Positions 13,049 to 37,068 of a stretch of 37,068 bases of DNA are shown here, piece by piece. A program made the position numbers and the translations under genes. Source of the stretch: a virus; the IMG/VR virus record IMGVR_UViG_3300009173_000038, positions 1-37,068 of that record. One strand, written 5' to 3'. Position 1 is the first letter of the stretch, and every line of letters starts with the position of its first letter. The notes below the pieces were generated by a model. The model saw nothing but the letters and a program-made list of their open reading frames with translations, was not told where the DNA came from and did no database searches.

Positions 13049-14880
13049 AAATTACCTTCTTTATATTGAGTTAACAAGTCTCGAAGTTCAGTCAATGGCA
13101 CTCCGGTTGCTTCTGAGAAGCTCTGCATTAAGACATTATCATCAATAAGCTGGTCAACAAGAATTTCTGCCCCAGCTAAATCGTTAAAATCTATATTAAA
13201 ATTATCTTCTACAAAAGCTTTAAATGAACCTGCTAATTCGTTTATATCTTTAGTTCCTGGGTCATCTTTTTTAATCTTGTCAAAATTTTCCTTTAGCGCC
13301 TCAGCATCGTATGTGAGTATATTGCCCTTGCCTGCGTTGTTATCGGCTTGCGTTGTCGTATTCTCTTTGACTACCTCGTTAAAATCCTTGCTTGTAAAAT
13401 TCTTACTAACAATCCTTGCGCCCAAATAAAGTTTATCTCTATATATCTCTTTCTTGAAGTCGAGCAATGCTTTACGCACTTCTCTGTTTGTAGGGCCACG
13501 TCCTTTTTCTACGCGGGTTGTTTCATATAAGTCAGAAATTATTCGTGTAACATCGTCTTTAAAACCATCGGTGGCAGAAGCTCCTTCTGCAAAATTCATT
13601 CCATATAGTCCCTTAGCATGCGATTCTTTAATAACGCTTGACATTGAAGTTACAAATTCTTTTACACTTGGGTCTTCTAATAGCGTTCCTGCGCCTTTTA
13701 AATCATCAAATCTTTTTAGCAAGTTTTCACGCTGCGAAGCATTTAATTGTGGGAAGGACTTTATAATAAAATCTTCAAGGCCTTCTCGGCTAGCGAAGCC
13801 GTTATTCAAAATAAAGTTTGTTACTGTTTTTACATCACTACTACTAGCAGGGCCAGCATCATAAGAATCCAAAAATTCAATAGTTTTTTTAGAACCAATT
13901 ATTATATCTAATTCAGCTGTAGCTTCTTCTTTCTGTTTAGGAGTATACGTTAGCCAGTTTAGTTGGTGTTCTAAAACTTTACTTTTCATAGTGCTGTCTA
14001 TAAGTTTAAGTCTGGTGGCAGCAATAGTAGCTCGTTTAGTAGTAAGTTTGCCAACAGCTTCAGATATCCACGGGTGTCTAGTTGAAGCCAGTGACGGTAG
14101 CACTTTACCATCTTTGCTTACTCTTGGCAAAGTTAAAAACTGTTCTAACCTTGTAATTTCTTCTTGCGTAGTTGCTTGTTGAAGTCTTGTTGTTACATAG
14201 TGTTTACTAAATTCAGCCACCAACGTGTTATTCCAAGCTGACGCTTTTGTACCATCGTTTAGAAAGAAATCTTTTTGAAAAGTAGCGATAACAGAATGTA
14301 CATTTTCTGAATCTGTAACATCAATAGTTGTTGCGAGGTTGCTGAATTTTATTTTCTTATCATGCACGCCTCGTAATTCACTATATTTAATATCCATCTG
14401 CTGAAAATACGGCGTTGCAATACCATTAAAACCTGTTTGATACCCTATCGTTTTACCAGTAAATTCTTCAGGCATCTGGCCTGTCACCCATTCTTCCCAA
14501 TCTTCGTTCTCATAATCAAATTCACCAGATGCGACTCTCTTTTGAAGTTCAGCAACAAATTGGCCTGCATCATACATTCCATAGTTATTGTCGATAACTG
14601 ATTTAGTATATTCCCCTTGTAGGTTTGGGTGTGCCCCTTCTTTCATTTCTGCATTTATTTGGTCAGGGCTTTTGCTCAAAAGCAAAGTTCTTAGTTCTGC
14701 GGCTGCTGCTTTCTTACCTTCATCAGCAACCTGAATAACACCTTTCATTGCTGTCGATGTAAAACTTTGTAAGGACTTAACTAAATCTAAAGAGCTCTCA
14801 TCACCAGGACGTTGAGCACCTACATCTGTTGCACCATAATAAAGGTTCTGTATTTGTGATGTATAGTTCGTATTAGCCAT
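13045..14880 (-). CDS. Internal virion protein C-type (T7 gp15 position)
   Basis: 611 aa, soluble and strongly helical, between gp14- and gp16-type genes, as T7 gp15 (747 aa). It should be part of the ejected core that forms the periplasmic tunnel with gp14 and gp16. It starts MANTNYTSQIQNLYYGATD, then SLDLVKSLQSFTSTAMKGVI; Lys/Glu-rich helices fill most of the rest. No membrane segment is visible. A ribosome site (AAGGAGACATA) precedes the ATG, and its TGA overlaps the next start. Confidence 0.82.
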   Translation of the reverse strand: MANTNYTSQIQNLYYGATDVGAQRPGDESSLDLVKSLQSFTSTAMKGVIQVADEGKKAAAAELRTLLLSKSPDQINAEMKEGAHPNLQGEYTKSVIDNNYGMYDAGQFVAELQKRVASGEFDYENEDWEEWVTGQMPEEFTGKTIGYQTGFNGIATPYFQQMDIKYSELRGVHDKKIKFSNLATTIDVTDSENVHSVIATFQKDFFLNDGTKASAWNNTLVAEFSKHYVTTRLQQATTQEEITRLEQFLTLPRVSKDGKVLPSLASTRHPWISEAVGKLTTKRATIAATRLKLIDSTMKSKVLEHQLNWLTYTPKQKEEATAELDIIIGSKKTIEFLDSYDAGPASSSDVKTVTNFILNNGFASREGLEDFIIKSFPQLNASQRENLLKRFDDLKGAGTLLEDPSVKEFVTSMSSVIKESHAKGLYGMNFAEGASATDGFKDDVTRIISDLYETTRVEKGRGPTNREVRKALLDFKKEIYRDKLYLGARIVSKNFTSKDFNEVVKENTTTQADNNAGKGNILTYDAEALKENFDKIKKDDPGTKDINELAGSFKAFVEDNFNIDFNDLAGAEILVDQLIDDNVLMQSFSEATGVPLTELRDLLTQYKEGNL

Positions 14881-23378: not shown

Positions 23379-25283
23379 TTAAGTACCAAGGCCCACCAGT
23401 TCACAACTGTTGCCTACACAGGCGAACTCTTGACTCCCTGTAGTGTTGTCCTCGTTTTCGTATGCAGACAGGTGCGTAAAGTCTATGTTATCTGGCATCT
23501 TAGCAACAGCCTCGTCATATTCTTTCTTAGTTATTTCTTGGTATGGAGCTTGTTTATATACATGGTCTAAAGCTGGTAAGAAACTAATACCTGCAACCTC
23601 GTCAAAGTTTGCGTATACCCACGCGCCGACGTCCATCCACTCATCTTCTTTTACGCTGATTGTAACTGATGGCTTGTGTTCACACCACGCACGTTGGTAC
23701 ATCAACCATGTTTCTAGTTGGCGAATAGCTGATAATGAATGGGTTGTTAAGCACCCTTTAGGAGAGGCCTGTGGAAAAGAGAATACCATTACGTCATCGG
23801 GTCTCATTACATCTGGTTCATGGGGGACACCTTTGTCAACTAACATGCGTGTCAAAGGGTCCTTCATATCCATGCGAACAGTCCTAATATAATATGCGCT
23901 GTACCTTGTATGAATACCTGATGCTGAATCTACAAGCTGGCTAACTGTGCCAGAAGGTTTCACACAGGTGATAGCTGTTGACTGATTGATACCAAGTTTA
24001 CTACTTAATAATTTGTTACACTCTACAGCTGTGTTCCTTAGTCTGTTTAAGAAACTAGGACTTGGTGCAATCGTGAGTTTGTTATCCATGATGCCAGTAA
24101 GAGAGACACCTAAGAGTCTTTCTTCTTCAGTGTTAGTTCTCCACAATTTTCTTATGTATTTAAAATCAGTCAAAGTAGATTGAAAGGTGCCAAGAATAGT
24201 AGCTAGCTCTATTTTATTTTGTAGACTGGCCTGAGTGTCTGTCGCTCTTACTACCACTTCAGTTAGATTACAAAATTGATAAGGCCTCAAGATAATCTCA
24301 GAACAAGGGTTGGTACCAAAGTCATGTTCAACATCTCTTCTACCATTCTCGGCTACTTTATTCTTAGCTGCTTGGCGATTAAAGATACCACGTTCACCAC
24401 TCTTGCTTTCATATAATGCTTTCCACTCGGTCATGAATAAACTCATGTCAGGAGTCCGTGTATACACAGCGCTATTATTAGCTAGTGCACGTTGTCCATT
24501 CTCTATCCACCACTGTCCAGTTTTAGATTTACGAAGGCTGTCATCCTGTATATTGCTCAACGAAATTAAAGCTGAACGTCTAACTCCACCAACAACAACT
24601 ACTTCTCCTACCTTGCACACTAAATCGTGACACTCAATAGCTTCAAGTTTTCTGCCTGCTGCTTTTTGAAATAACTCAATTGCAAAATCAAACAAGTCAA
24701 CTAATGGTTGTGGACCTGAGGCTCTCCCACCAAACGTTTTTAAACGGGCACCCGCAGGGCGCACTTGTGTCACATCTACTTTAGGTATTTGTCCTGCGTA
24801 TAACATAGCGAGGAGTTCGCGAAAGGAACTGGCCCAACCAGCCTTGCTGTCTTTGACGACAATGATTGTCTCACTCTTGGAAAAAGTTTCGGCAACAATA
24901 GGCAACTGTGATACGTTGTTGTACTCTACGCTAAACCCAACACCGGTACCGCATAGCAAGATGTACATAACTTCATCAAAACTTCGTATATCATCTATGG
25001 GGATGTAGCTGCAGTTGTAGCCAGCAGTGTGGTCTCTATCAAGGGCGACACCTGCTGTCATCAATGCACGCATGCTAGGCATGATTTCTAAATTCAAAAC
25101 AGCTGGTTCTAATTTCAATCTAAGCCGTCCCATGTTGTAGTTAAATTTTGTTTCTAAATGTTTCTCTAAGAAATCAAAGTATCTTCTCACTGTTTCAACC
25201 CATGTTTCTCTGCGATTGTTAACGTCATCGAAACGGGCGTAACGGGATGTGTGTATATATTGTTGGTATATTGTTGGTAACAT
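23379..25283 (-). CDS. nrdJ: Class II (adenosylcobalamin-dependent) ribonucleotide reductase
   Basis: 634 aa, monomeric Lactobacillus-type RNR reducing ribonucleoside triphosphates to deoxy forms for phage DNA synthesis. Key residues: Cys91 (GYNCSYIPID) and Cys338 (QFCNLTE) as the redox pair, thiyl Cys327 and Glu329 in TNPCSEIIL, the CVKPSGTVSQL phosphate-binding loop near 440, and C-terminal Cys622/Cys627 (CVGNSC) that reload the active site. No radical-generating small subunit or NrdG-like activase is present, as class II enzymes need none. Shorter than the L. leichmannii enzyme (739 aa). It sits after the replication genes, giving nucleotides from degraded host RNA. The host must supply or import a cobalamin. 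Confidence 0.96.
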   Translation of the reverse strand: MLPTIYQQYIHTSRYARFDDVNNRRETWVETVRRYFDFLEKHLETKFNYNMGRLRLKLEPAVLNLEIMPSMRALMTAGVALDRDHTAGYNCSYIPIDDIRSFDEVMYILLCGTGVGFSVEYNNVSQLPIVAETFSKSETIIVVKDSKAGWASSFRELLAMLYAGQIPKVDVTQVRPAGARLKTFGGRASGPQPLVDLFDFAIELFQKAAGRKLEAIECHDLVCKVGEVVVVGGVRRSALISLSNIQDDSLRKSKTGQWWIENGQRALANNSAVYTRTPDMSLFMTEWKALYESKSGERGIFNRQAAKNKVAENGRRDVEHDFGTNPCSEIILRPYQFCNLTEVVVRATDTQASLQNKIELATILGTFQSTLTDFKYIRKLWRTNTEEERLLGVSLTGIMDNKLTIAPSPSFLNRLRNTAVECNKLLSSKLGINQSTAITCVKPSGTVSQLVDSASGIHTRYSAYYIRTVRMDMKDPLTRMLVDKGVPHEPDVMRPDDVMVFSFPQASPKGCLTTHSLSAIRQLETWLMYQRAWCEHKPSVTISVKEDEWMDVGAWVYANFDEVAGISFLPALDHVYKQAPYQEITKKEYDEAVAKMPDNIDFTHLSAYENEDNTTGSQEFACVGNSCELVGLGT

Positions 25284-25535
25284 TTATTTCTCCTTTCTAA
25301 TTTGTTGCTTAACTTGCCGTATTAAAAAATCAACATACCGTTTTGCTTTCAATAAATCTTCTAATTGATTTCCAGGTGTGTCATGTTTCTTTTGCCAACG
25401 GCATATATATTTTATTACATTACCTTCAGCATACGGAATGTGGTTCTTCATAATAAAATCTACCGGTTCAATTTTATAATTCTTATAGTATCCAGGGTTG
25501 TTTACTTCAGTATATTTCGTAATTACATTGTCCAT
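25284..25535 (-). CDS. DUF3310-type protein (C-terminal domain of T7 gp1.7-like nucleotide kinases)
   Basis: 83 aa. YKIEPVDFIMKNHIPYAEGN, then VIKYICRW and LEDLLKAKRYVDFLI, is the DUF3310 pattern (EPxDFI, EGNxIKYxxR, DLxKAxxYL). In T7 gp1.7 this domain belongs to a protein with dGMP/dTMP kinase activity; the stand-alone form's activity is not established. It overlaps the exonuclease gene by 13 bp and lies next to RNR, consistent with a nucleotide-metabolism role. No Walker A motif is present. Confidence 0.85.
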   Translation of the reverse strand: MDNVITKYTEVNNPGYYKNYKIEPVDFIMKNHIPYAEGNVIKYICRWQKKHDTPGNQLEDLLKAKRYVDFLIRQVKQQIRKEK

Positions 25536-26260
25536 AATAATGGCTCTCCTTGTGTCATATCATACTCATCGTAACGAAGTATCCTAGCTACACGGGCTTG
25601 TTGTAACACTTCGTCTTTGCTATATCCTTTCTTGGCGTAAGTCTCTACAAGAATGTTCCAGTTCTCTACAAAAGAAACTTTAGGGTCTAATAATTTTTCA
25701 GCTGTTTTAATTCCAATACCAGGACAACCACTATAACCATCGACTACATCACCAGTTAGAGTCTGCATTAGAAACCAGTAATCACCTTGTTCTTTTGTGA
25801 CAGTGCGTATATCTCTACCGTCATAAAGCTGACCAGGAATTTGTTGCAAATCTTTATCAATAGAAACAATTATTTTTTCAATTTCAGGTGATGTGGTATC
25901 TGTAGCTAGTATGCCTAGTACATCATCAGCTTCTAAAGAATCAAAGGCAATGCCATAATGCTCATCTATAATGTATTGTTTTAATAAACCAAACAACATA
26001 GGTTTACGTTTATCTTTACGGTTTGATTTATATGATGGCAGTATTTCTTTTCGGAAATTAATTTTATCTGAGAACGCAACAACATAATCTTGTGCATCAA
26101 GGAACAGCATAAGATTAGCAAGCTCTCTACGTAGGCCTGCTTTACATTTGCGTTCGTCGGTGTGTAATGTCCAGAGGCCATCACCCCAGTTAATCTCTGT
26201 CTCAAATTTAGTGGCCACTCTATAAATTAAAATGTCACCATCAATTAGTAATTGTTTCAT
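25523..26260 (-). CDS. 5'-3' exonuclease / flap nuclease (T7 gp6-like)
   Basis: 245 aa FEN-family nuclease. Acidic metal sites are visible in order: LLIDGDILIY (residues 4-13), SLEADDVLGILATD (near 108), VSIDKDLQQIP (near 132), and GDVVDGYSGCPGIGIKTAEK (near 168), the helix-hairpin-helix DNA-binding motif. In T7 the homologue (300 aa) degrades host DNA for nucleotide recycling and removes primers. It overlaps the preceding gene as ATGA. The combination with RNR fits a virus that rebuilds dNTPs. Confidence 0.95.
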   Translation of the reverse strand: MKQLLIDGDILIYRVATKFETEINWGDGLWTLHTDERKCKAGLRRELANLMLFLDAQDYVVAFSDKINFRKEILPSYKSNRKDKRKPMLFGLLKQYIIDEHYGIAFDSLEADDVLGILATDTTSPEIEKIIVSIDKDLQQIPGQLYDGRDIRTVTKEQGDYWFLMQTLTGDVVDGYSGCPGIGIKTAEKLLDPKVSFVENWNILVETYAKKGYSKDEVLQQARVARILRYDEYDMTQGEPLLWTM

Positions 26261-26658
26261 TTAGGTATCCTTGGTAAATTTTTTTTATCAAACAAATCCC
26301 GTAACGGTATAAGGATAAACTTGCTTTTGTTATAGTCACCACCATAACGCGCAGTATCTAAATACTTTTTAGCTAGACGTTTAACAGTCTTAGTATCAAA
26401 TATTAATCTGCAATAATCCTCGTCACCTAAGGCCAGTATCTGTATCCAGTAATCTGCCTTAGTCGTCATAATGCCTGATGGTTTTCCGTAGCTTTCTATT
26501 TCTAAACAGATGTTACCACTTCTGAACCACCAATCACGTTCAGTTTTTATTTCAGCTTTAGTTTTTTTAGCGTCAAGAATTGCAACAATGCGATTCTCTC
26601 TATCCAAACCATACTGTAAATCTTTATCGAAATCAGGTTGACCTTTTCTTGGACTCAA
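26257..26658 (-). CDS. Possible PD-(D/E)XK nuclease-like protein, TTG start
   Basis: 133 aa. The segment ILDAKKTKAEIKTERDWWFR and SGNICLEIESYGKPSGIMTT, then KADYWIQIL, resembles phage proteins with a restriction-like fold (E-x-K strand, then IE, GKPSGI and ADYW). I recall similar proteins in marine podoviruses, usually without assigned function. The start is TTG 26658, overlapping the polymerase stop (CATTGA) with GGAG 9 nt upstream; no other start gives a full-length protein. Located between DNA polymerase and exonuclease. Nuclease activity is inferred. Confidence 0.7.
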   Translation of the reverse strand: MSPRKGQPDFDKDLQYGLDRENRIVAILDAKKTKAEIKTERDWWFRSGNICLEIESYGKPSGIMTTKADYWIQILALGDEDYCRLIFDTKTVKRLAKKYLDTARYGGDYNKSKFILIPLRDLFDKKNLPRIPK

Positions 26659-28385
26659 TGTGTTTCACTCCAGTTATCTCCAATGTTATATTCCCCAGTG
26701 AGAGGTAATCGGAGATTGAAATGTTTTCCTGTGCGTTCAATAGCATCAACTGCAATCTGTCCAACGGTATCAGCCAGCGCTGCTGGACACTCAACTTGTA
26801 TCTCATCATGTACCCAAACAACTTGTTGGACGTCAGGGTATTTAGCGACAGCTGTGTCAAATTCAATGAGCCATTGCTTACATACGATGGCACCACCTGA
26901 TTGTAACAGCGTGTTAAGCGCAGCGTGAGGAGAACGTACTTTAACATTTCTCTTATCTAAACCGATTAAATAACCGCGAGCGGCAGCCAGCTGTACATTT
27001 TCAATGAGCGTATTGAGAGCTGGTAAGTTATTTAAAAAACGTTTCTTTACTTTGGATGCTTCATGCACACTCTTCCCTGTGACTTGTGCAATCTTTTTAA
27101 CACCACCCCCGTATAGAAAACAGTAGTAAAAACGTTTAGCTAAATCACGACTATTTAATCCAGCTAATTTCTGTGTCTCAGTATGGATGTCTCCATTCAA
27201 AACTACATCCGCATATTTACCATCATCATACTTAGCCATGTAATGGGCCAACATACGCACCTCTAATCCAGAGACATCAATCCCAACCAGTTTATTGCCG
27301 GGCGATACAGTGAACAACGAGCGACATTCTCTACCATAGGGAACACTAACACCAGGGACTTGTGCTAAGTTTGGATTAGTATGTGAGGCGCGGCCAGTTA
27401 CAGTGGAATTGGTATTACAATTTCCATGTATCCTACCATCTACTTCACATTTTAACCACGCCTGTTTTCCGTTAGCGATTTGGGCAATACGTTTCTCTAA
27501 CAAGAAATGTTCTGCCAAAGGTTTTGCCTCTGGGTAAGGAAGGCTACTAAGAATAGCATCATCCAACTTAGGTTTCCCGTCTGCTGTAAATTCTACTGGT
27601 TCCCATTTATGTAAACCTGTTAGACGGTCAGCGATGTGCTGTCGACTAGCAGGATTGAAAGGAACTATTTTCTCTTTAAAGGTAGGAACACCCTTTACGT
27701 ACCCTCTAGTTTTATTGTTTCCTTTCGGTGTGAAAGGTGTTCGTACAAGTTTGGGAGGGAACACAGTTTGTAGTTCTTCGTTAAGGTCGAAGAGCCTTGC
27801 GTTAAGAACAGCTGACAACTCCTGTGCTTTCTTTACATTAAAAGAAAACCCGTGTTGTTCCTGTTCATGGATAGTGGTTACGACTTTATGTTCTAACTCC
27901 ATAGCTTGTCGTGAATAACCAGCTTGCTGTATACGTATCCACAGCGCTGTTGTAACTTCAACATCTTGTACACAATACTCTAGCATTTCTTTTGTAAATA
28001 TATCAAAGCCACCTTGATAGTCACCTTTGTAATTACCAATACGATAACCCCAGGCTTTTAAACTATGACGTCCTATACAATCTCTCGGGAAATTTTGTTT
28101 AGCAAAATCTGTACCAGCAATGTCAGGGTATATTAACCGCGTTGCTATAAGAGTATCAAATATATTGGCCTTAGTTTTAAAGCCGTGAAGTTTACGTAAT
28201 ACAGGTATATCAAATTTAATTATGTTATGGCCGATGATAAGCTCTGCATCTTTTAAACGTTGGAGAGCTTCAGGCACAGGTTCAGTGTATACTTCACCAG
28301 TGTCAATGTCTTTCGAAACAATACAATGTATCTCTGTTGTTTCTTTTAACAGGCCATTGGATTCTATATCAAAACAATATTTCAA
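26655..28385 (-). CDS. polA: Family A DNA polymerase (T7 gp5-like)
   Basis: 576 aa replicative polymerase with 3'-5' proofreading. Exo motifs: FDIESNG (Asp6, Glu8), HNIIKFD (Asp59), YCVQD (Asp141). Polymerase motif A GIDVSGLE (Asp370), motif B AKRFYYCFLYGGG (Lys417, with Tyr421 at the E. coli Phe762 position), motif C VWVHDEIQVE (Asp527, Glu528). T7 gp5 is 704 aa; the region between QTVFPPKL and VPFNPASRQH is only about 35 residues against about 80 in T7, so the thioredoxin-binding insert is much reduced. The only start is TTG 28385, with AGGAG 6 nt upstream and an in-frame TAG just before it. Confidence 0.97.
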   Translation of the reverse strand: MKYCFDIESNGLLKETTEIHCIVSKDIDTGEVYTEPVPEALQRLKDAELIIGHNIIKFDIPVLRKLHGFKTKANIFDTLIATRLIYPDIAGTDFAKQNFPRDCIGRHSLKAWGYRIGNYKGDYQGGFDIFTKEMLEYCVQDVEVTTALWIRIQQAGYSRQAMELEHKVVTTIHEQEQHGFSFNVKKAQELSAVLNARLFDLNEELQTVFPPKLVRTPFTPKGNNKTRGYVKGVPTFKEKIVPFNPASRQHIADRLTGLHKWEPVEFTADGKPKLDDAILSSLPYPEAKPLAEHFLLEKRIAQIANGKQAWLKCEVDGRIHGNCNTNSTVTGRASHTNPNLAQVPGVSVPYGRECRSLFTVSPGNKLVGIDVSGLEVRMLAHYMAKYDDGKYADVVLNGDIHTETQKLAGLNSRDLAKRFYYCFLYGGGVKKIAQVTGKSVHEASKVKKRFLNNLPALNTLIENVQLAAARGYLIGLDKRNVKVRSPHAALNTLLQSGGAIVCKQWLIEFDTAVAKYPDVQQVVWVHDEIQVECPAALADTVGQIAVDAIERTGKHFNLRLPLTGEYNIGDNWSETH

Positions 28386-28426
28386 ATCTGTCTCCTATTG
28401 TCAAACTACTATTACATCCTTTAGGT

Positions 28427-28627
28427 TTAATGTGTGGTATCAATTTTGACATTGATTCTCCAGACATCTAAATCCCCTGCTTCTTGTAAAGAAGCCAGGG
28501 TCTGTATAACAATCTTGGCTGTGTTATCATCAGGCACGGCGATAGTCACCTCATCGTCTGTGTTGCTAAGCTTAAACAAAGCAGCAAGTATGACATCACC
28601 CCAATTTATTTCTTTCTCAAAAGTCAT
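28427..28627 (-). CDS. Hypothetical 66-aa protein between primase-helicase and polymerase
   Basis: Unrecognised small acidic protein: NWGDVILAALFKLSNTDDEV, TIAVPDDNTAKIVIQTLASL, DLDVWRINVKIDTTH. An alternating strand-helix-strand pattern suggests a compact alpha/beta fold without membrane parts. The ATG overlaps the primase-helicase stop by 11 bp and follows a GAAATCCTCAG region that is only a weak ribosome site, so coupling is likely. A replication-associated role is inferred from context only. Confidence 0.65.
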   Translation of the reverse strand: MTFEKEINWGDVILAALFKLSNTDDEVTIAVPDDNTAKIVIQTLASLQEAGDLDVWRINVKIDTTH

Positions 28628-30206
28628 CAGCGAAATCCTCAGTCTGCGTTAAACACCCAGTCTCTAAATTATACTGTAGTGTGCACGCTTTCCCAGTCTC
28701 TCCGCTGAATCTATTTTTTAATACATGTAGCTGTGTTTGATTATCTTCCGCCTGCAAATCTCGTTGCATACTTATAATCATATCTGACAGTTGGCCAATA
28801 GATGCACTGCCACGCAGCGCGTTCATGCTGACAGGAACCCCATCTTCATAACCTCTGTTACCTTCCGGACGTCGTAAGTGGCTGACAAGGATGAGTCCAA
28901 TCCCTGTCTCTTCTACTAACGTACGCAGTTTAGTAACAGTGTAATCTATGAGCTTCCGCTCGTCACCTATATCTTCTCCAACAGCACTTAATGCAATATG
29001 CAAATGGTCTAAGATAACGAAGTCCACGTTGCATGCTTTTGCTAAGTATCTAATTTTACTAATTAAATTATCTGAAGCTGTACTACCGAAGTGATTATAA
29101 AGATAGAAGTTACCGTTGCCTACAGTTTCTTTAAAACATTTTTCTAATTCTTTTGTGTCTACACCTTCACGAGTTAAGTGCAAAGGCTTTTGTAAGTTGA
29201 TACCCATCACGCCTAAAGCACTACGCTTTACTGTTTCTTCAAGCGCAATGTACCCAACGCTATAATTATTCTGTAGTAAATGTGAGGCAACGTGCCTACA
29301 AAAACTACTCTTACCTACACCACTACCAGCGGTGATAGTAACCAGCTCTGACTTACGTAACCCATGCGTCTTAACATTTAATAATGGGAACGGGTAGTCT
29401 ACTGAAACATAATCATCTTCTTTCTGGATGCTGTCCCACAAATCTGCGCCTGATACAATCCCATCAGGGCGATACGCTTTGCTGGCCCACATACAATCTA
29501 TAAGTTCTTTAGTTTTCCCTGCCACTAACATTTCATTAGCGTCTTTCAAGGGAAGCTGGCAAATTCTCGCTTTGTTAGGGCTGAACAATTTCGCACATTC
29601 AAGGGCAGCTTTCTTGCCGGGCTCATCTTGGTCAAACATAAGGATAACTTGTTCAAAGTTTTCTAACCATTCAAGCTGACGTTGTATGTCACGCTTGGCC
29701 CCTTGTGCCCCTGACTTAACAGATACCACAGGCCATTTGTTTTCTTGAACACGGGACACAGACAGAGCGTCTATCTCACCTTCAGTTATTACAACCATCT
29801 TACCTTTGTCACGCCACAGTTGTTGTCCAAAAAGAACACTGTCTTTTGCATCGCCTATCCACTGAAAACTTTTATCAGGGTAGCGCAACTTCTGTGCAAC
29901 TAATTGATTGTTAGTGTTGTAGTAGTTAGCAACTTGCACAGGTTTCCCGTTGCTACTGCCCACACCATAATTAAATTTCTTTAATGTTTTGATATCTAAC
30001 TTACGGCGACTAAGTTCTACTACTTCGTAATCTATAAAGTTAATTTGTTTTTCTAAGTTTGGTGTTGTATTCACTATCTCATCTCCCGACTCTATGTGTC
30101 CGCACCCAAAACAATATGAATGTCCATCTGAATAGACAGCTGCATTGTCTTTACTTCCACATACAGTACATGGAACGTGATGTATAAATTCTGATTCTTG
30201 TTTCAT
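28617..30206 (-). CDS. Bifunctional primase-helicase (T7 gp4-like)
   Basis: 529 aa (T7 gp4 is 566). An N-terminal zinc ribbon (Cys13, Cys16, Cys32, Cys35; PCTVCG and CFGCG) recognises priming sites. The TOPRIM primase core has TEGEIDALSV (Glu142) and FDQDEPGKKA (Asp192, Asp194). The C-terminal DnaB-type helicase has Walker A AGSGVGKSS (294-301), Walker B VILDH (Asp400) and VSHLRRP near 445. It ends EDFADDF, an acidic Phe-terminated tail of the kind that docks on gp5 in T7. It should synthesise primers and unwind DNA at the fork. A structured 70-bp gap precedes it. Confidence 0.97.
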   Translation of the reverse strand: MKQESEFIHHVPCTVCGSKDNAAVYSDGHSYCFGCGHIESGDEIVNTTPNLEKQINFIDYEVVELSRRKLDIKTLKKFNYGVGSSNGKPVQVANYYNTNNQLVAQKLRYPDKSFQWIGDAKDSVLFGQQLWRDKGKMVVITEGEIDALSVSRVQENKWPVVSVKSGAQGAKRDIQRQLEWLENFEQVILMFDQDEPGKKAALECAKLFSPNKARICQLPLKDANEMLVAGKTKELIDCMWASKAYRPDGIVSGADLWDSIQKEDDYVSVDYPFPLLNVKTHGLRKSELVTITAGSGVGKSSFCRHVASHLLQNNYSVGYIALEETVKRSALGVMGINLQKPLHLTREGVDTKELEKCFKETVGNGNFYLYNHFGSTASDNLISKIRYLAKACNVDFVILDHLHIALSAVGEDIGDERKLIDYTVTKLRTLVEETGIGLILVSHLRRPEGNRGYEDGVPVSMNALRGSASIGQLSDMIISMQRDLQAEDNQTQLHVLKNRFSGETGKACTLQYNLETGCLTQTEDFADDF

Positions 30207-30221
30207 AAATTTTTCCTAAGC

Positions 30222-30255
30222 GGGTACGCAGAGGAGAAAGAGAAACTACGTACCC
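30222..30255 (-). other. 10-bp-arm inverted repeat before the primase-helicase gene
   Basis: GGGTACGTAG and CTGCGTACCC (minus strand) form a 10-bp stem with one G-U pair and a 14-nt pyrimidine loop. No T-tract follows. A second small stem (TTGTCC/GGACAA) lies at 30257-30274. Together they fill the 70-bp gap between the endonuclease I stop and the primase-helicase ribosome site. RNase III site, attenuator or DNA structure are all possible. Confidence 0.55.
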
Positions 30256-30276
30256 ATTGTCCGAGGAGGGACAAGT

Positions 30277-30702
30277 TTAATCTAACCATTCCTTTGGTAT
30301 TGTTTGGTGTGCATACAGGAAGCCATACTTCTGACACCACATGCCGTGTGTTGTTTTAGATTTCTTACTAATACGGGCACGTGCGTTGCTAAACACAAAA
30401 CGAATATCTAACTCAGGGTACTGCTCTTTAATCAACCGCATTTTTTGTCTGTCTGCGGTAGTGAACATCCGTTTTGTTTCAATAAAAATTTTCTGTTTAA
30501 GTAAATAGAAGGCAGGCGTATAGGTATGTGTCTGCTGTGGTGTAACGTATTGTAATTTCGTTTCCTCATAGGTATAATCGACAGAATTCTTTGTAAGTTC
30601 TTCTGCAATAACTTCTTCAAGGCCACTACGAAATCCATATTTTGCACCTACCTGTTTAGAAGTCAGCGTCTGCTGCTTCCTCTTCCTGTACTGGTACCTC
30701 AT
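30277..30702 (-). CDS. Endonuclease I / Holliday-junction resolvase homologue (T7 gp3-like) with altered active site
   Basis: 141 aa, colinear with T7 endonuclease I (149 aa): YGFRSGLEEVIAEEL, HTYTPAFYL, KIFIETKRMF, YPELDIRFVFSNAR. The T7 catalytic set is Glu20, Asp55, Glu65, Lys67. Here Glu29, Glu75 and Lys77 are present, but the Asp of TPDF is Ala64 (codon GCC; a single base change from GAC), and one extra residue lies between it and Glu75. The Asp is metal-binding and needed for cleavage in T7, so this copy may bind branched DNA without normal cleavage. ATG 30702 lies 46 bp inside the SSB gene after AGGAAG. Confidence 0.9.
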   Translation of the reverse strand: MRYQYRKRKQQTLTSKQVGAKYGFRSGLEEVIAEELTKNSVDYTYEETKLQYVTPQQTHTYTPAFYLLKQKIFIETKRMFTTADRQKMRLIKEQYPELDIRFVFSNARARISKKSKTTHGMWCQKYGFLYAHQTIPKEWLD

Positions 30703-31285
30703 TTTCCACTTCCTTTTTCTCGGCTACATAACCGTCTTTGATTTCATCAAATCCGAATCCGGATGCGTTGCCACTACCACCTTGGACTAGCTTCACAACT
30801 TGAACAGCACGTAGTCTAAGACTGACGCCTGCTCCTGCCATGGCTGTGTAATAAGGTATAAGTTCTGCGCTGACTTTAAGCTCACTGCCTGACCACACAT
30901 CAGTGTCTATTATAGGGACACCCTGTGTATCAAACAACGGTACTTTATTTTTAATTATAGTACCATCCTTAGTTGTCAACTCAGCTTTAGTTTTGAATTT
31001 AAAGATAAGATTGTCAGTTGTGTTGCCTTCCTCATCAATCTCTTCAGTGTATGGCAACGGTGCCTGTTTAATTTTCTTACTCTTAGTGCTCTCTTCAGCA
31101 AGAGTAGCGCTTTGTGCCAAGGCCTTGTCAATGGCCTGTATTAAGGGCTGTGACTCGTCCGCCTTTACAATTAAATTAGTTTTGTAATGACCAACAGGGT
31201 CAAACCTTGTGTCGGGCTGTGTAAGCCACGCGTACTGGGCTGTGCCTTTAGGGGACACAACTCGTTCATAGTTATTTCTCGGCAT
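30656..31285 (-). CDS. Single-stranded DNA-binding protein (T7 gp2.5-like)
   Basis: 209 aa (T7 gp2.5 is 232). An OB-fold core with KGTAQYAWLTQPDTRFD, GHYKTNLIVKA and a late block VSLRLRAVQVVKLV is followed by a Glu-rich C-terminal tail ending EEEAADADF. Acidic tails with a terminal Phe bind polymerase and helicase in T7. It should coat single strands during replication and recombination. Its gene follows a promoter-like element and overlaps the start of endonuclease I in another frame. The pairing of SSB and endonuclease I is as in T7. Confidence 0.93.
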   Translation of the reverse strand: MPRNNYERVVSPKGTAQYAWLTQPDTRFDPVGHYKTNLIVKADESQPLIQAIDKALAQSATLAEESTKSKKIKQAPLPYTEEIDEEGNTTDNLIFKFKTKAELTTKDGTIIKNKVPLFDTQGVPIIDTDVWSGSELKVSAELIPYYTAMAGAGVSLRLRAVQVVKLVQGGSGNASGFGFDEIKDGYVAEKKEVENEVPVQEEEAADADF

Positions 31286-31310
31286 AGTATAATCTCCTTA
31301 TGAATTAATG

Positions 31311-31330
31311 TCTATGAAGGGCACCTAAGT
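31311..31330 (-). promoter_or_regulatory. Putative phage RNA polymerase promoter upstream of SSB
   Basis: Minus-strand ACTTAGGTGCCCTTCATAGA. This copy is closest to the SP6 promoter (ATTTAGGTGACACTATAG): it shares TTAGGTG and a closing ATAGA. It overlaps the last base of the RNA polymerase gene and lies about 25 bases before the SSB ATG, with AAGGAG between. No upstream GGG pairs with it here, so unlike the copy at 36215 it does not look like a terminator. Confidence 0.75.
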
Positions 31331-33780
31331 TAACTGAAAAAGAAATCACAATCCATTAAGTCTTCTATGTTTAAATCAGATTGCTTAGGCACATCTGGTA
31401 ACTTATCAAGAAGCTTTGGATTTGAAATTTGTGTCTTCACTTCAGTTAAAAAATCCTTCAATAGATTTGCGTCATTGAATATATCAACAAACGCTGTCTT
31501 AATACAGACTAACAATACATTCATGTCGCCTGCTGTAGTACCGAATGAATCGTGGACTGTTGCAAAATTTTGTACCCCATTTTCAGCGGCAAGATTTACA
31601 GTCTTCATTAACGCGCTACTATCTAAAGCGTGTATGAAATTCGGTGCAATACCATTAGACATTCGATAGCCGTCCATCTTATCAGTCTCTTCTTTGACTC
31701 TAGGTTTGAACACTTCGCCCATCAACATGGTCTTGACTCTTTTGGTTTTCATTTCAGGATAGAATTGCTGGACATAAAAACCAGTAGGTGTTGTCCAGTG
31801 TATAGGCATATCTTCTTTCGCTACTATCTTTGCTATTTGTTGCAAAAAGGCCATGCCTACCTTAGCACTGGCTAATGATTCAGCCAACGCACTCCATATA
31901 TACCCAGACAAATAACTTGCGGCAGCCATAGGCGCCTGACTGAATGGGTGTTGTTCACCACGCTCTTGTCGTTTTTTCAAATCTTCCAAAACAAAATCAG
32001 AACATGAGTAACGTGTGCTTCCATAAACAGATGTCATGACAGCACGCTTAACTGTGCTACGTTTGATACCATAGGCCAACCATTGCTGTGCCATGGTGTC
32101 ATCCTTTTCAGCTTTCAATCTTTCAATAACTGCATTGGCTAGTTGTTGATACACATCAGCAGGCTTATCTGCCGGTACCACATTAACCAAAGCGCCACTG
32201 TCTTTATCGCGTAACAATAATGAATACAATTGTAAACCGTTACAGCTACCATCGACAGCTATAGGCAGATGACTAATAAAATCTTCGTCAGTACCACTGT
32301 CTCTGTGTGCAAGCCACGCTGTCCACTCAAAACAAAATGCTAAGAATTGAAAAGGTTTATCGGCCTCTTCCCACCACCGCGTACCCAAGGGGTCAGTAGC
32401 ACACTCTTTAATAGTGTCTGCATGTTTGTTAACCCAAGCGACACGCTCGTCCAAGTTGACTTTATCATAGCCAAACATGTTAGCACCGTGCATCGCTAAA
32501 TAAAATATACCATCATTGTCTTTTGTGATGGGTGAACCATCCACAAATTCTAACAAGGCCTTGGACATGGTGTTGCTTTGATAATTAAGAAAGGCGGGGA
32601 CACAATACACACGGCCACGAAAATCTAATTGCACTGGAAAATAAATTTTCTCATGGTGTTGTAGCTGTTGTGCCATGCCTATAATCTTAGTGTACAAAAT
32701 AACTTTAGACATGTTGGTCTTATTCAACGTGTGCGCAGTGGCAGCCACATTACGCCACAACTTTCGGGCCTCTGCGTTTGTGTCAATGTCATGTGGACGG
32801 TTAGGTATGTCAACGAGATTGGGCGTAGGTATCTCACCACGTCCGAGTCCCTCGTCCCATATTTGATATGCAACATCCAATACTTTTTTGTTAACTCGGA
32901 AAGGTGTACGTTGTAGGTTGTTAACTGCCTCGTATACCTCAGGCATATCAACCGTTCGTAAAGTCTCTTTGAATTTTTTATTCTTAACCTTAACTAAATC
33001 TAAATCTGGTAACACACTCGTGATGTACCCACCCCCCTCTACTGTTGTCCAGTCTTTAGGTGGTGTAATAGTTGGTAGATAATCTGGATGTAATAACTCA
33101 GTGTAACTTTCACGCTTAGATATCCACTCAAGATTTTCTTTGGTATAGTTTAATACCTTACGTTTCTTCTGACGCACAGTCTCCGTGCCAATACTAACTA
33201 AGCCTGTGCTTTGTATAAAGATGTCAATGAAACGTATACCAATCTGTAACTTTTCGTTGGTAGTCCATTTAATCCAGTTGCCCTCAGCGTCACGTATAGC
33301 AGACTCACGGAACTTTCTACGTTTGTAAGTGTAATTCCAACTACGCTTATCCAAGTTTGCTTTAACAGTCTGATACAAGTTGCGATTAGCCAGTGCAAAA
33401 TTACGCAAGGCCACCTCAGTTTCAATCTTCTCACCTAAAGATATAGCTGTAGCAGTCAAAGCCTTACGTTGTACCATCATGTTGATGATGTGTTTAGCTG
33501 TGATAACAGCGATAGTCTCTGGCGGTATCTCTTTGGCAAAAGTAAAAGCCATGTGCGGTTTACCTTTGATACCTGACTCATTAAAAAACTTTACGATGTG
33601 GTCAGCCATAGGTTGTATCGCACGGGATACCATGGACTTACCTGAACTTGTGACAGACGCGTCATTACGCATGACGTTTGAGTTGCGCCGTTTCTCCGCA
33701 CGTTTACGCCCACTCTCCATCATCTGTTCTTCGTGAGTATGCGCTATGCAATACTCCATATTCTCAAAATCATTCGACAT
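31330..33780 (-). CDS. Single-subunit DNA-directed RNA polymerase (T7 gp1-like)
   Basis: 816 aa (T7 is 883). The start is placed at ATG 33780 (MSNDFENMEYCIAHTHEEQM), after GAGGAGAATCT; a longer in-frame ATG at 34026 is rejected because it runs 230 bp into the upstream gene. Motifs: VQLDFRGRVYCVP, AVDGSCNGLQ (catalytic Asp510, T7 Asp537), KRSTVKRAVMTSVYGS (Lys578, Tyr586; T7 Lys631, Tyr639), FATVHDSFGT (Asp744; T7 Asp812). The C-terminus ends DCDFFFS. The specificity-loop region (KRVKTMLMGEVFKPRV) differs from T7 at the promoter-contacting positions. It transcribes the middle and late genes, and a candidate promoter for it lies immediately upstream of its own gene. Confidence 0.97.
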   Translation of the reverse strand: MSNDFENMEYCIAHTHEEQMMESGRKRAEKRRNSNVMRNDASVTSSGKSMVSRAIQPMADHIVKFFNESGIKGKPHMAFTFAKEIPPETIAVITAKHIINMMVQRKALTATAISLGEKIETEVALRNFALANRNLYQTVKANLDKRSWNYTYKRRKFRESAIRDAEGNWIKWTTNEKLQIGIRFIDIFIQSTGLVSIGTETVRQKKRKVLNYTKENLEWISKRESYTELLHPDYLPTITPPKDWTTVEGGGYITSVLPDLDLVKVKNKKFKETLRTVDMPEVYEAVNNLQRTPFRVNKKVLDVAYQIWDEGLGRGEIPTPNLVDIPNRPHDIDTNAEARKLWRNVAATAHTLNKTNMSKVILYTKIIGMAQQLQHHEKIYFPVQLDFRGRVYCVPAFLNYQSNTMSKALLEFVDGSPITKDNDGIFYLAMHGANMFGYDKVNLDERVAWVNKHADTIKECATDPLGTRWWEEADKPFQFLAFCFEWTAWLAHRDSGTDEDFISHLPIAVDGSCNGLQLYSLLLRDKDSGALVNVVPADKPADVYQQLANAVIERLKAEKDDTMAQQWLAYGIKRSTVKRAVMTSVYGSTRYSCSDFVLEDLKKRQERGEQHPFSQAPMAAASYLSGYIWSALAESLASAKVGMAFLQQIAKIVAKEDMPIHWTTPTGFYVQQFYPEMKTKRVKTMLMGEVFKPRVKEETDKMDGYRMSNGIAPNFIHALDSSALMKTVNLAAENGVQNFATVHDSFGTTAGDMNVLLVCIKTAFVDIFNDANLLKDFLTEVKTQISNPKLLDKLPDVPKQSDLNIEDLMDCDFFFS

Positions 33781-33794
33781 AGATTCTCCTCGTA

Positions 33795-33814
33795 TCTTAG
33801 ATGGGCACCTTAGT
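33795..33814 (-). promoter_or_regulatory. Putative phage RNA polymerase promoter upstream of the RNA polymerase gene
   Basis: Minus-strand ACTAAGGTGCCCATCTAAGA, the third and most distinctive context of the element: it covers the last codons of the 161-aa gene and ends 14 bases before the RNA polymerase ATG. If active, the polymerase would drive its own synthesis. The GAGGAG ribosome site follows directly. Confidence 0.7.
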
Positions 33815-34282
33815 TCTGGCCCACCACCATGGCTCTTCGACACCTTTGTCCCATGTAGCCATGTACGTCTTGTCAGCTTTGTAATACTGACGGTATGCCT
33901 TGACAGCACTTTTGTGTTTGTATTTGTCAGGCATACATTGTACAAAAGGTGTAAGCCCTGTGTCCTCAAGTTTGTCCACAGGTACTGGCAACTCTTCAAC
34001 AACTTTCCATGACTTGTGGTCTCCATTGTCGTAGCGCCAGATATACTCGTTGTTTAACCAACGGCAGTATTCATACACATATTTATAGTTAGATAAAGAG
34101 GCGCCACACCAGAGACGACACGGGTGATTCTTATGTGTCGTCTTGTATGGTGTGTCATATCCCAACATGTTGAGCGTGCTACACAAAAGCTGTGCACTCT
34201 CTAGTATCATCTTAATAACATGCTTGTCACAATGATACGTCGCACTCACGGCCGGGTCCTCATGTAATATAAACAGATTCAT
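33797..34282 (-). CDS. Widespread phage protein of unknown function (CDKHVIKM family)
   Basis: 161 aa. MNLFILHEDPAVSATYHCDK plus HVIKMILESAQLL, THKNHPCRLWCGASLSNYKY, GLTPFVQCMPDKYKH and AVKAYRQYYKADKTYMATWD form a pattern I recall from many T4- and T7-like marine phages. No function is assigned in what I know. Conserved His, Cys, Lys and Asp residues near the N-terminus could be catalytic. The ATG overlaps the preceding stop as ATGA. Here it is the last gene before the polymerase, possibly a host-DNA or host-takeover factor. Confidence 0.85.
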   Translation of the reverse strand: MNLFILHEDPAVSATYHCDKHVIKMILESAQLLCSTLNMLGYDTPYKTTHKNHPCRLWCGASLSNYKYVYEYCRWLNNEYIWRYDNGDHKSWKVVEELPVPVDKLEDTGLTPFVQCMPDKYKHKSAVKAYRQYYKADKTYMATWDKGVEEPWWWARTKVPI

Positions 34283-34500
34283 TCGCTGTTCTCCTTGTCA
34301 AGAAATGCCTCGATGAGATGATAGTGTAACACACCTGTGTCGCACTTCATTAACCGATACCCTTTGCTAATCAATTCTTGTTGTTTAGCTTGTGCATTCT
34401 TAACTGACTGTGGATTGTCTAGTTTCCAGGTAATCTTCTGTTTGTCAATAGGTACCAGTTCTGCCTTGGTGTACCCGTGATTATATCCCCTCTTCGGCAT
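34279..34500 (-). CDS. Hypothetical 73-aa early protein
   Basis: Not recognised: MPKRGYNHGYTKAELVPIDK, then NPQSVKNAQAKQQELISKGY and HYHLIEAFLDKENSE. Start ATG 34500 follows CTGAGGAGTGTGACA; an upstream in-frame ATG at 34542 would overlap the previous gene by 62 bp and has no better ribosome site. The N-terminus is basic and the rest mixed, with one likely central helix. Its stop overlaps the next gene as ATGA. Role unknown. Confidence 0.7.
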   Translation of the reverse strand: MPKRGYNHGYTKAELVPIDKQKITWKLDNPQSVKNAQAKQQELISKGYRLMKCDTGVLHYHLIEAFLDKENSE

Positions 34501-34648
34501 TGTCACACTCCTCAGGCTGGTGCTCATACGTTTCAACCTCATAGTCTTCTTGCGCCATCAAGCCAGCGTCCTTAGGTGAGTAGCCCTCGTCCAAATACAC
34601 CTCGTACCTATGCAAGACAAACTCATCTCGATAATCATTCATTGACAT
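34481..34648 (-). CDS. Hypothetical 55-aa acidic early protein
   Basis: Not recognised. MSMNDYRDEFVLHRYEVYLD, then EGYSPKDAGLMAQEDYEVET; about 17 acidic against 3 basic residues. ATG 34648 lies 7 nt after AAGGAG; ATG 34642 (MNDYRDEF) is also possible, and the longer frame from 34675 has no ribosome site. Overlaps both neighbours. Size, acidity and early position fit a host-takeover or inhibitor peptide, an inference only. Confidence 0.68.
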   Translation of the reverse strand: MSMNDYRDEFVLHRYEVYLDEGYSPKDAGLMAQEDYEVETYEHQPEECDNAEEGI

Positions 34649-35003
34649 CTTCACTCTCCTTAGGGTAGGCCTCAACGGCCTCGGCCCAGTCTGGTACTGC
34701 GTCCGTTATCTTCTTCTTCCCATACAACACGTCCTGTATTTTGTTATTCACGTGTTGTCTATCACGACCAAGCACCTCATCTACGTGTGCCTCAAAATCT
34801 TTATGGAGTTGAGACTCAAACCAAAATGTAAAAATGTCTGGGTAATGTTTGTGATACAAGCGCACAAACGCCATGTGTGTAGTAGCTATCTGCACAGCCG
34901 ACACATCACCGTCATACAACCTAGTGAATTGCTTTTGAATGAACTCATCTTTCCTGGCTCTATCGCACGCAACTTCTTCTGCTATAGTAATTTCCATTCT
35001 CAT
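34635..35003 (-). CDS. Hypothetical 122-aa early protein
   Basis: Unrecognised. Helical, with a Tyr/Phe/His-rich middle: FVRLYHKHYPDIFTFWFESQ, then LHKDFEAHVDEVLGRDRQHV and an acidic tail (YPKESEDVNE). Start MRMEITIAEEVACDRARKDE could also begin at the second Met. No membrane segment or known motif is evident. It lies in the string of small early genes before the RNA polymerase. Confidence 0.7.
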   Translation of the reverse strand: MRMEITIAEEVACDRARKDEFIQKQFTRLYDGDVSAVQIATTHMAFVRLYHKHYPDIFTFWFESQLHKDFEAHVDEVLGRDRQHVNNKIQDVLYGKKKITDAVPDWAEAVEAYPKESEDVNE

Positions 35004-35005
35004 TA

Positions 35006-35245
35006 TTACTCACCCTCCTTATTAGATACCACCATGGCTTGACGCGCACGGTTTAAGGCGTTGTTGATACGCTTACTGGTGAACGTAACCACGCCATCCT
35101 TTGAGCGTATACCTGCTCTAGGAATATTTATTGTCTGTATCGTCCCATCGCTGTGGTGGAACTCATACAGGCCGTGCTCTTTAGGCACCTTGGCCTCACG
35201 TTCTTTACGTGCTAGCCTCTTACTTAATTCCCATTGTATAATCAT
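35006..35245 (-). CDS. Hypothetical 79-aa basic early protein
   Basis: Not recognised. A basic N-terminal helix (LSKRLARKEREAKVPK) is followed by GLYEFHHSDGTIQTINIPRA, a strand-rich stretch, and a basic helix (SKRINNALNRARQAMV). The high basic content suggests nucleic-acid or host-factor binding, but no DNA-binding motif is certain. Starts at ATG 35245 overlapping the previous stop as TAATG, with AAGGAG upstream. Confidence 0.68.
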   Translation of the reverse strand: MIIQWELSKRLARKEREAKVPKEHGLYEFHHSDGTIQTINIPRAGIRSKDGVVTFTSKRINNALNRARQAMVVSNKEGE

Positions 35246-35856
35246 TAGGCAATCTCCTTGTACTGCTCTTTTAAAGCAGACTCTGTAAAGTCACTTAAAT
35301 ACTCATTTGTAATAAGTGCTATCGTTAACTTATCAAGCATGTACCAGACCTCATCATCGTAGCCGTTGCTGTCTTTGTCACGCTCATCAAGTGATTCGAT
35401 GGCGTATCTTAATGTGTGGTAATCACCACCGCCACCGAACTTGTCACGGGTGCCCACATCGTGCATGCCCAGTATGGTGCAATGCTTATCAAGGCCCTCG
35501 CAACTTCTCCCATCTTTTTCGTCCCAAACAAGTTGGTAGTATTCACGTCCGCTATACTCTGACGCGACGTACTCTCCAAAGTCATAGTATCTGACTAGAC
35601 AATCAACACTTTGTTCGGCCACTTGGTATTCTCTTAGGGCCTCATTGTCTCCATCACATGTGCATACGTTACCACTATGGTTGTTAGAATATTTTTCTAA
35701 CTGTTTATCAAGGAACGCAGTGACTTCTTTGTCCTTGAGTCTCCCTATAGTGCGTCGCACCTCATCGTATCCGATAGGCCCATACGTACCTGGGCCCTTT
35801 TTATGTACAACATCTAGCAAGCGCTTAATGCTGTATCTTCCTATACTATCTGGCAT
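35245..35856 (-). CDS. Hypothetical 203-aa early protein
   Basis: Unrecognised, the largest early gene. Landmarks: MPDSIGRYSIKRLLDVVHKK, VRRTIGRLKDKEVTAFLDKQ, a Cys pair (VCTCDGDNEALREYQ), aromatic-rich RYYDFGEYVASEYSGREYYQ, a Gly run (KFGGGGDYHTL), and an acidic C-terminal helix (YDDEVWYMLDKL). Five Cys are scattered. It overlaps the previous gene by 11 bp. No catalytic motif of a known early enzyme (kinase, dGTPase inhibitor, methylase) is apparent. Confidence 0.72.
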   Translation of the reverse strand: MPDSIGRYSIKRLLDVVHKKGPGTYGPIGYDEVRRTIGRLKDKEVTAFLDKQLEKYSNNHSGNVCTCDGDNEALREYQVAEQSVDCLVRYYDFGEYVASEYSGREYYQLVWDEKDGRSCEGLDKHCTILGMHDVGTRDKFGGGGDYHTLRYAIESLDERDKDSNGYDDEVWYMLDKLTIALITNEYLSDFTESALKEQYKEIA

Positions 35857-36070
35857 TTATCTTCCCTCCTGTATCAATGATATTTTGAATTTGGTTTGCA
35901 AGTTCTATCACACCCTCGCAGTAATCTACTGTACCACTGCCTGCGTCATAGTCATCGCTTTCTAAAATATCTTTTTCTGCGCGATGTTTCTCCTCTTTGC
36001 AACGGTTATAAACTTGTGCCACCAAAGCCTGAACATCTTCACAAGTTAATTCTTTGCTTGGTTTACTCAT
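35846..36070 (-). CDS. Hypothetical 74-aa early protein
   Basis: Not recognised. Two helices: LTCEDVQALVAQVYNRCKEE and, after SDDYDAGSGTVDYCEGV, a second IELANQIQNIIDTGG. Acidic, three Cys, no membrane segment. Its ATG follows AAGGAGAAAGTTAT. It is the first gene after the candidate promoter at 36215-36234, behind a leader of about 145 nt with several hairpins. Confidence 0.7.
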   Translation of the reverse strand: MSKPSKELTCEDVQALVAQVYNRCKEEKHRAEKDILESDDYDAGSGTVDYCEGVIELANQIQNIIDTGGKINAR

Positions 36071-36228
36071 ATAACTTTCTCCTTTTCACTACTCCCTGTA
36101 TCCCAGGGACATGTGGTGTGTAGAGGTGTGTAGGTGGAGTAGTCTATCCTTGGTGAATATGAGCAAGGACAGTCGGGGACTCCTAAGGGGGTATGTTTAA
36201 CCCACCTACCTCTATCTTAAAAGGGCAC
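36071..36228 (-). promoter_or_regulatory. Structured leader before the 74-aa early gene
   Basis: No ORF was seen in this stretch. On the minus strand several stems can form: TCCTTG/CAAGGA with an 11-nt loop, TCCCTG/CAGGGA with loop GGATA just before the ribosome site, and a longer-range AGGTGG/CCACCT pairing between the promoter end and the middle of the leader. Near-repeats CACCTACACACC and CCTCTACACACC also occur. Such a leader could stabilise or regulate early mRNA. Confidence 0.45.
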
Positions 36229-36234
36229 CTAAGT
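36215..36234 (-). promoter_or_regulatory. Putative phage RNA polymerase promoter (or terminator) in the early region
   Basis: Minus-strand ACTTAGGTGCCCTTTTAAGA, the fifth copy of the element. Here it is part of GGGCAC-TTAG-GTGCCC, a 6-bp stem with a tetraloop followed by TTTT, so it could also end transcription of the gene upstream (36251-36529). The shared 20-bp pattern with four other gene-start sites favours a promoter; a combined terminator-promoter is possible. Confidence 0.6.
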
Positions 36235-36250
36235 GCCCCTTAGGTGACCT

Positions 36251-36529
36251 CTATGCGTATCCGTTGTCAAGGGATACATCTTCTTCAATTTCTTCCACGT
36301 CTGCGTCGCCCTCGTCGTTATACTTTGTAACGTCGTGGACTGTGCATTCAGTCGCTTGGAAACCAAAGGAAGAGTCTTCGCATGGTAACTCGGCATAGAA
36401 CGCGTCTTGGGCCATTTGTGCCAAGGCTGTGTCATCGGTGACATCAAAATCGTCATCAACTTCAACCGTGGCTTCAAAATTATACTCAAGCACGTCCTGA
36501 CCTGTGATAGTTAAACGAACTTCTTTCAT
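36251..36529 (-). CDS. Extremely acidic 92-aa early protein (possible DNA mimic)
   Basis: Not recognised. Counting directly, 27 Asp/Glu against 3 Lys/Arg: EVDDDFDVTDD and NDEGDADVEEIEED are the main clusters. It begins with a strand pair (MKEVRLTITGQDVLEYNFEA) and has two Cys. Small, acidic, early proteins that look like DNA are known from T7 (Ocr, gp0.3), where they block restriction enzymes and host polymerase factors, but no sequence similarity to Ocr is visible. Start ATG 36529 follows AAAGGAGAAAGGCAACC, downstream of a possible sigma-70 promoter. Confidence 0.72.
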   Translation of the reverse strand: MKEVRLTITGQDVLEYNFEATVEVDDDFDVTDDTALAQMAQDAFYAELPCEDSSFGFQATECTVHDVTKYNDEGDADVEEIEEDVSLDNGYA

Positions 36530-36559
36530 GGTTGCCTTTCTCCTTTGTCGGCGGATTTA

Positions 36560-36595
36560 TTCTACCTTAACATGGCCTGTCAAACCATGTCAAGG
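36560..36595 (-). promoter_or_regulatory. Possible host sigma-70 promoter within an 11-bp inverted repeat
   Basis: At 36565-36595, CCTTGACATGG and CCATGTTAAGG (minus strand) are inverted repeats around TTTGACAGG. Two perfect TTGACA hexamers occur, one in the left arm and one in the loop; the loop copy has ATAAAT 17 nt downstream (36555-36560), a fair -10. This fits an early host-driven promoter with an operator-like palindrome. Read on the plus strand, the same stem is followed by ATTTTATTTATT and could act as a terminator. Confidence 0.5.
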
Positions 36596-36609
36596 ATTTT
36601 ATTTATTAA

Positions 36610-36825
36610 CTACGTTAAAATCTTAAAAGCGTCATCGTCGTCGTCGTCAATGCGCGCCTCTATTATGCCCTTAATATCATCCACATCGTACCCGATAAAT
36701 CTTTCACGGTATGAAAAATCATCATCATCATTATGGTACACCTGGACTTGAGTAAGTGCGTGTCCAACGTCAATAAACACGTTGTAATCGCAATAATCGT
36801 ATTGGTGTTGGTGTAAAATCGCCAT
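36610..36825 (-). CDS. Asp-rich 71-aa early protein
   Basis: Not recognised. MAILHQHQYDYCDYNVFIDV, then VYHNDDDDFSYRERFIGYDV and EARIDDDDDDAFKILT: 18 acidic and 5 basic residues with Asp runs of four and six. The ATG follows AAAAGGAGAAAGATACT, an excellent ribosome site. Like its neighbour it is small, early and acidic, so a DNA-mimic or host-protein inhibitor is plausible. The Asp runs are GAC/GAT repeats that may vary in length between strains. Confidence 0.68.
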   Translation of the reverse strand: MAILHQHQYDYCDYNVFIDVGHALTQVQVYHNDDDDFSYRERFIGYDVDDIKGIIEARIDDDDDDAFKILT

Positions 36826-36915
36826 AGTATCTTTCTCCTTTTAGGTTTTAACTTATCCTAAGACGCCCATATTAACAGGCGTTTCGCTGTCTGTACAGCT
36901 CATTCAGTTAGGCTT
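36826..36915 (-). other. AT-rich intergenic stretch with small stems
   Basis: No gene was seen. Minus-strand stems: GCTGT/ACAGC with a 4-nt loop, ACGCC/GGCGT with a 10-nt loop, and TTAGG/CCTAA just before the ribosome site of the Asp-rich gene. CTTAGG recalls the promoter element, but the following bases do not match it. Confidence 0.35.
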
Positions 36916-36960
36916 TTATTCTTGAAAATATTCTATTATCCATATGATTAGACTTCCCAT
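36916..36960 (-). CDS. Possible 14-aa membrane micro-peptide
   Basis: Reads MGSLIIWIIEYFQE then TAA. The ATG is 8 nt after a perfect AAGGAG. The peptide is almost entirely hydrophobic and could be a leader peptide, a small membrane toxin-like or signalling peptide, or chance. A GC-rich hairpin precedes its ribosome site. Confidence 0.3.
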   Translation of the reverse strand: MGSLIIWIIEYFQE

Positions 36961-36975
36961 TTTTCTATTCTCCTT

Positions 36976-36997
36976 GCCTGGGTATAAGCCCCCAGGC
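36976..36997 (-). other. GC-rich hairpin upstream of the 14-codon ORF
   Basis: GCCTGGG and CCCAGGC (minus strand) make a perfect 7-bp stem with an 8-nt loop. There is no T-tract; AAGGAG begins 1 nt after the stem. This fits an RNase III or RNA-processing site, or a structure that modulates the ribosome site, more than an intrinsic terminator. Confidence 0.5.
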
Positions 36998-37013
36998 GGG
37001 CCTTACTTTTATC

Positions 37014-37067
37014 TTATTCACCAAAAAGAATATTAGTTAACTCTTTTCCGTCTTTAGGTGGCTCGAT
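37014..37067 (-). CDS. C-terminal fragment of a gene cut by the right edge
   Basis: An open frame enters from the right edge and ends IEPPKDGKELTNILFGE, then TAA. Only 17 residues are visible, so neither family nor reality can be shown. It fits gene spacing (a hairpin and the next ribosome site follow) and the minus-strand orientation. Confidence 0.35.
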   Translation of the reverse strand: MEPPKDGKELTNILFGE

Positions 37068-37068
37068 A

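Follow-up and report, generated by a model that had tools for sequence, protein, structure and literature searches.

A catalytic-residue loss in a phage endonuclease I that probably stems from a local sequence error

We analysed the full length of a linear, 37068-base IMG/VR record (the window) in which the endonuclease I gene, as deposited, encodes Ala at codon 64 (GCC, minus strand, 30511-30513), where a catalytic Asp is expected from T7 endonuclease I. Two contigs from the same population have GAC (Asp) at this codon. The apparent loss of the catalytic residue is almost certainly a local sequence error of one assembly, to which we assign a probability of about 95%. The enzyme is judged ordinary because contigs of this phage from other metagenomes, otherwise identical, encode the usual Asp. 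The GCC codon is thus in the record but is probably absent from the phage itself. The closest annotated phages to the window are HTVC019P-type Pelagibacter phages, of which this phage is a relative.

The finding leaves the biology of these phages unchanged. It provides a useful example of how a few miscalled bases in a contig from a viral metagenome can look like the loss of a catalytic residue. It also illustrates that contigs of the same population can expose such errors without recourse to reads, as differences that are clustered, one-directional, all non-synonymous and located at invariant sites.

The endonuclease I gene and its catalytic residues

The gene (30277-30702, minus strand) encodes a 141-residue T7 gp3-like Holliday-junction resolvase (phrog_945). 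Its product matches the Pfam family Phage_endo_I (PF05367) with an E-value of 6.3e-46 (score 156 bits, cut-off 29.1), the profile match spanning the nuclease domain, and the T7 endonuclease I structure (PDB 1m0d) aligns over residues 23-140 (E 5.7e-33). In this alignment Ala64 lies opposite the Asp of the T7 HTYTPDF motif. The motif does read HTYTPAF in the deposited letters, as an earlier note on this DNA had reported; the note placed the substitution at 30508-30513, which comprises the codons of both Ala64 and Phe65. The equivalents of T7 Glu20, Glu65 and Lys67 are present as Glu29, Glu75 and Lys77 and are invariant in the homologues. The translation and the 1m0d alignment thereby agree with the note that these residues are kept, and the active-site Glu, Glu and Lys are shared with T7 endonuclease I (gene 3; PDB 1m0d, 1m0i, 1fzr, 2pfj). 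At the position equivalent to Asp55 the deposited sequence has Ala and the same-population contigs (L001 and L082, described below) have Asp; the deposited record lacks this residue, but the phage itself, to judge from these contigs, very probably has it.

Compared with T7 endonuclease I, the deposited protein has Ala for the catalytic Asp55 and Arg for the Gly that follows the ETK motif, both of which we attribute to error. The protein also has one extra residue before ETK, a difference that the earlier note had described correctly and that is common in marine relatives. Among 55 distinct homologues the spacing before ETK is 11 residues in 34, 10 (as in T7) in 17, and 13-14 in the other 4. 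By sequence comparison, the extra residue is an ordinary feature of the family, the 11-residue spacing being like that of 34/55 homologues.

The genes surrounding endonuclease I form a T7-like replication neighbourhood. A Gp2.5-like ssDNA-binding protein is encoded on one side and a T7-type primase/helicase on the other, and a family A DNA polymerase, a 5'-3' exonuclease and a T7-type RNA polymerase are also encoded nearby. Endonuclease I adjoins the ssDNA-binding protein gene in HTVC019P-type Pelagibacter phages (for example HTVC168P, HTVC109P and Eistla EXVC025P) as it does here, and the endonuclease I proteins of these phages are 64-70% identical to that of the window.

A search of viral contigs yielded 80 loci with endonuclease I relatives, and all that were read encode Asp (GAC or GAT) at the position of Ala64; without exception, the relatives read, which come from viral contigs, carry YTPDF or a near variant that retains Asp. 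Over all fetched loci there are 175 distinct homologues, with Asp in 175/175 and Gly after ETK in 175/175, although some of these loci were fetched by a pattern demanding Asp and Gly, which makes the counts circular for those loci. In the sets fetched without the Asp pattern, both residues are found in 55/55 homologues (endonuclease I search) and 52/52 (ribonucleotide reductase query). The earlier note had proposed that homologues be compared and had named Asp in the homologues, with this genome standing alone, as a refuting result. This is what we find, and even the two otherwise identical contigs are among the homologues with Asp. Two Ala-coding versions of the motif, one spaced by 27 nt and the other by 24 nt, had no match in 2.9 million viral contigs; these patterns demand Tyr-Thr-Pro-Ala-Phe and ETKG, and other forms, as well as the window itself (which has Arg78), would escape them. 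The Asp version of the motif gave at least 120 matches in viral contigs.

Four clustered differences from same-population contigs

Sibling sequences were taken from IMG/VR since the phage collection had no near match to a 10-kb query around the gene; a query with window positions 1-25000 returned only Pelagibacter phages at 73-80% identity from that collection. Two of the same-population contigs cover the gene, IMGVR_UViG_3300027839_000416 (L001) and IMGVR_UViG_3300036814_000143 (L082, also L002). Their metagenome identifiers differ, and they are identical to each other across a 4688-bp overlap. L001 aligns gap-free to window positions 28676-34618 and L082 to 29931-37068, so that together they cover 28676-37068, over which they match the window base for base except at four positions.

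These four differences all lie within a 72-bp stretch (30471-30542), probably derived from a poor-quality read under thin coverage. On the plus strand, the window has G at 30471 where L001 and L082 have C (making G78R), and G at 30512, 30534 and 30542 where both contigs have T (making D64A, K57Q and K54T, respectively). Three aberrant bases thus accompany the Ala64 site, all overlooked by the earlier note. All four differences are changes to G on the plus strand, and all are non-synonymous. The one at 30471 puts Arg in place of the invariant Gly that immediately follows ETK, and both G78R and D64A fall in columns that are invariant among the 175/175 distinct homologues. When the sequence was scanned for as a pattern with 30512 and 30534 left open, only L001 and L082 matched, both with T at 30512.

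A third same-population contig, IMGVR_UViG_3300027844_000115 (G001; 30289 bp), spans window positions 142-30430 and differs from the window at six scattered positions. The sibling comparison as a whole covers approximately 37 kb of the window and gives ten differences, four of them inside the one 72-bp stretch; the background rate is approximately 0.2 differences per kb, versus 4 in 72 bp. When nine differences were placed at random, four within 72 bp arose in 0 of 200,000 placements. G001 ends at window position 30430, 41 bp short of the first aberrant base (30471), which hints at thin coverage at this spot. In six neighbouring genes (25523-34026) the window deviates at 0/155 near-invariant columns.

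The endonuclease I of the window also has His at residue 119 (30346-30348), in a column that is Tyr in 169/172 homologues. Unlike Ala64, His119 is a real variant, common to L001 and L002.

Origin of the aberrant bases

We favour error over mutation because each of the four differences introduces a G on the same strand and changes an amino acid, and because two of them fall on invariant residues. In the sequence of events that we propose, one or a few low-quality reads would have determined the consensus where coverage was thin. The reads, probably from an Illumina instrument, would have run along the plus strand and ended shortly after 30542, and four bases wrongly called as G (one C>G and three T>G) would have yielded G78R, D64A, K57Q and K54T. 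We infer this read-level cause from the pattern of the four bases. Substitution errors in Illumina metagenomes cluster and increase toward the end of the read; G is preferentially miscalled for A, C or T, and the error rate of T is highest on GAII and HiSeq instruments (PMC4787001). The four differences agree with this signature, although the record's own platform may differ. The gaps between the aberrant sites shrink in the plus direction (41, 22 and 8 bp), as fits a single read losing quality toward its end, but a trend over four points is no more than suggestive. Against an error of this kind, none of the four sites (0/4) directly follows GG, the motif most prone to error in the same study (PMC4787001).

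With the base calls of the sibling contigs, the phage very probably encodes an endonuclease I with Asp64 and Gly78, predicted from its sequence to be active. By analogy with T7, the enzyme would act as a metal-dependent Holliday-junction resolvase.

The residue change in the record has a precedent in the laboratory. T7 endonuclease I with the D55A substitution moves along DNA by diffusion and docks on junctions, but was never seen to cleave them (PMC9547003). D55A is the same residue change as Ala64 at the equivalent position, but it is a deliberate active-site change, whereas in the record Ala64 is accompanied by three other changes close by, and the sibling contigs encode Asp. The record could conceivably represent a real, rare and probably defective genome, a natural D64A/G78R mutant unable to cut junctions that is either a dead end or complemented. 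The base calls do stand in the deposited record, and the equivalent T7 enzyme has served as an inactive variant, although it continues to dock on junctions (PMC9547003). This explanation needs four non-synonymous changes to G on one strand, packed into 72 bp, in a genome that shows no other difference from its siblings across 8.4 kb, whereas neutral decay would be scattered and would contain synonymous changes, and we regard it as very improbable. It is very improbable that a minority genotype of this phage population has an endonuclease I inactivated in nature, which like T7 D55A would bind junctions but leave them uncut. If such a natural copy were real, it would be expected, by analogy with T7 D55A, to bind but not to cut junctions.

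The earlier note had left two outcomes side by side, an error or strain mutation on the one hand and, on the other, an enzyme that has lost catalysis, its role being assumed by a different nuclease. The suggestion of an error is upheld by the sibling contigs, and the loss of catalysis with a takeover is not. A functional change of this sort, in which junction binding is kept and the 133-aa protein or the terminase resolves junctions, draws on the residue itself, since binding to junctions without cleavage is established for the D55A enzyme. Yet no relative with Ala was found among the 175 distinct homologues or in the two Ala scans of 2.9 million contigs, and we therefore see no lineage that maintains a non-catalytic state. 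G78R and the other changes accompany Ala64, and the 133-aa protein (26257-26658), the note's candidate for the takeover, has no nuclease match: it matched no Pfam family and only phrog_13596, a PHROG of unassigned function. We consider a functional change extremely improbable. The clustering of the differences would also be expected if the stretch had come from a divergent relative by recombination, or had been altered by targeted mutagenesis (for example by a diversity-generating retroelement). Ala64 or Arg78 occurs in 0/175 homologues, however, and the window holds no second copy of the region that could serve as a template; one of the four coding-strand changes is G>C, where the altered base is not A, and the four are unaccompanied by synonymous changes. 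With no donor or template found, we rejected both of these origins, whose probability is close to negligible. A sequence error in the assembly remains our preferred explanation.

Other features of the window

Tandem repeats are present at 7292-7975 and 7998-8227, with periods of 36 nt and 30 nt that correspond to protein repeats of 12 and 10 residues. Both lie inside a gene for a 935-aa tail fibre (5882-8689, minus strand). In the structural region, a gene for a 611-aa protein (13045-14880, minus strand) has no PHROG match, and a search of viral contigs for close relatives found only a same-population contig (100%) and one partial match at 27%. A ribonucleotide reductase gene (23379-25283, minus strand; phrog_367, E 1e-177) lies between the structural and the replication genes, and its product has at least 600 relatives in viral contigs.

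The contig L082 extends approximately 1.15 kb beyond the end of the window (L082 positions 1-1152). Parts of this extension resemble window positions 36033-37018, in pieces of 38-138 bp that are 89-97% identical, and, to judge from these resemblances, repeated upstream sequences may be present in the early region.
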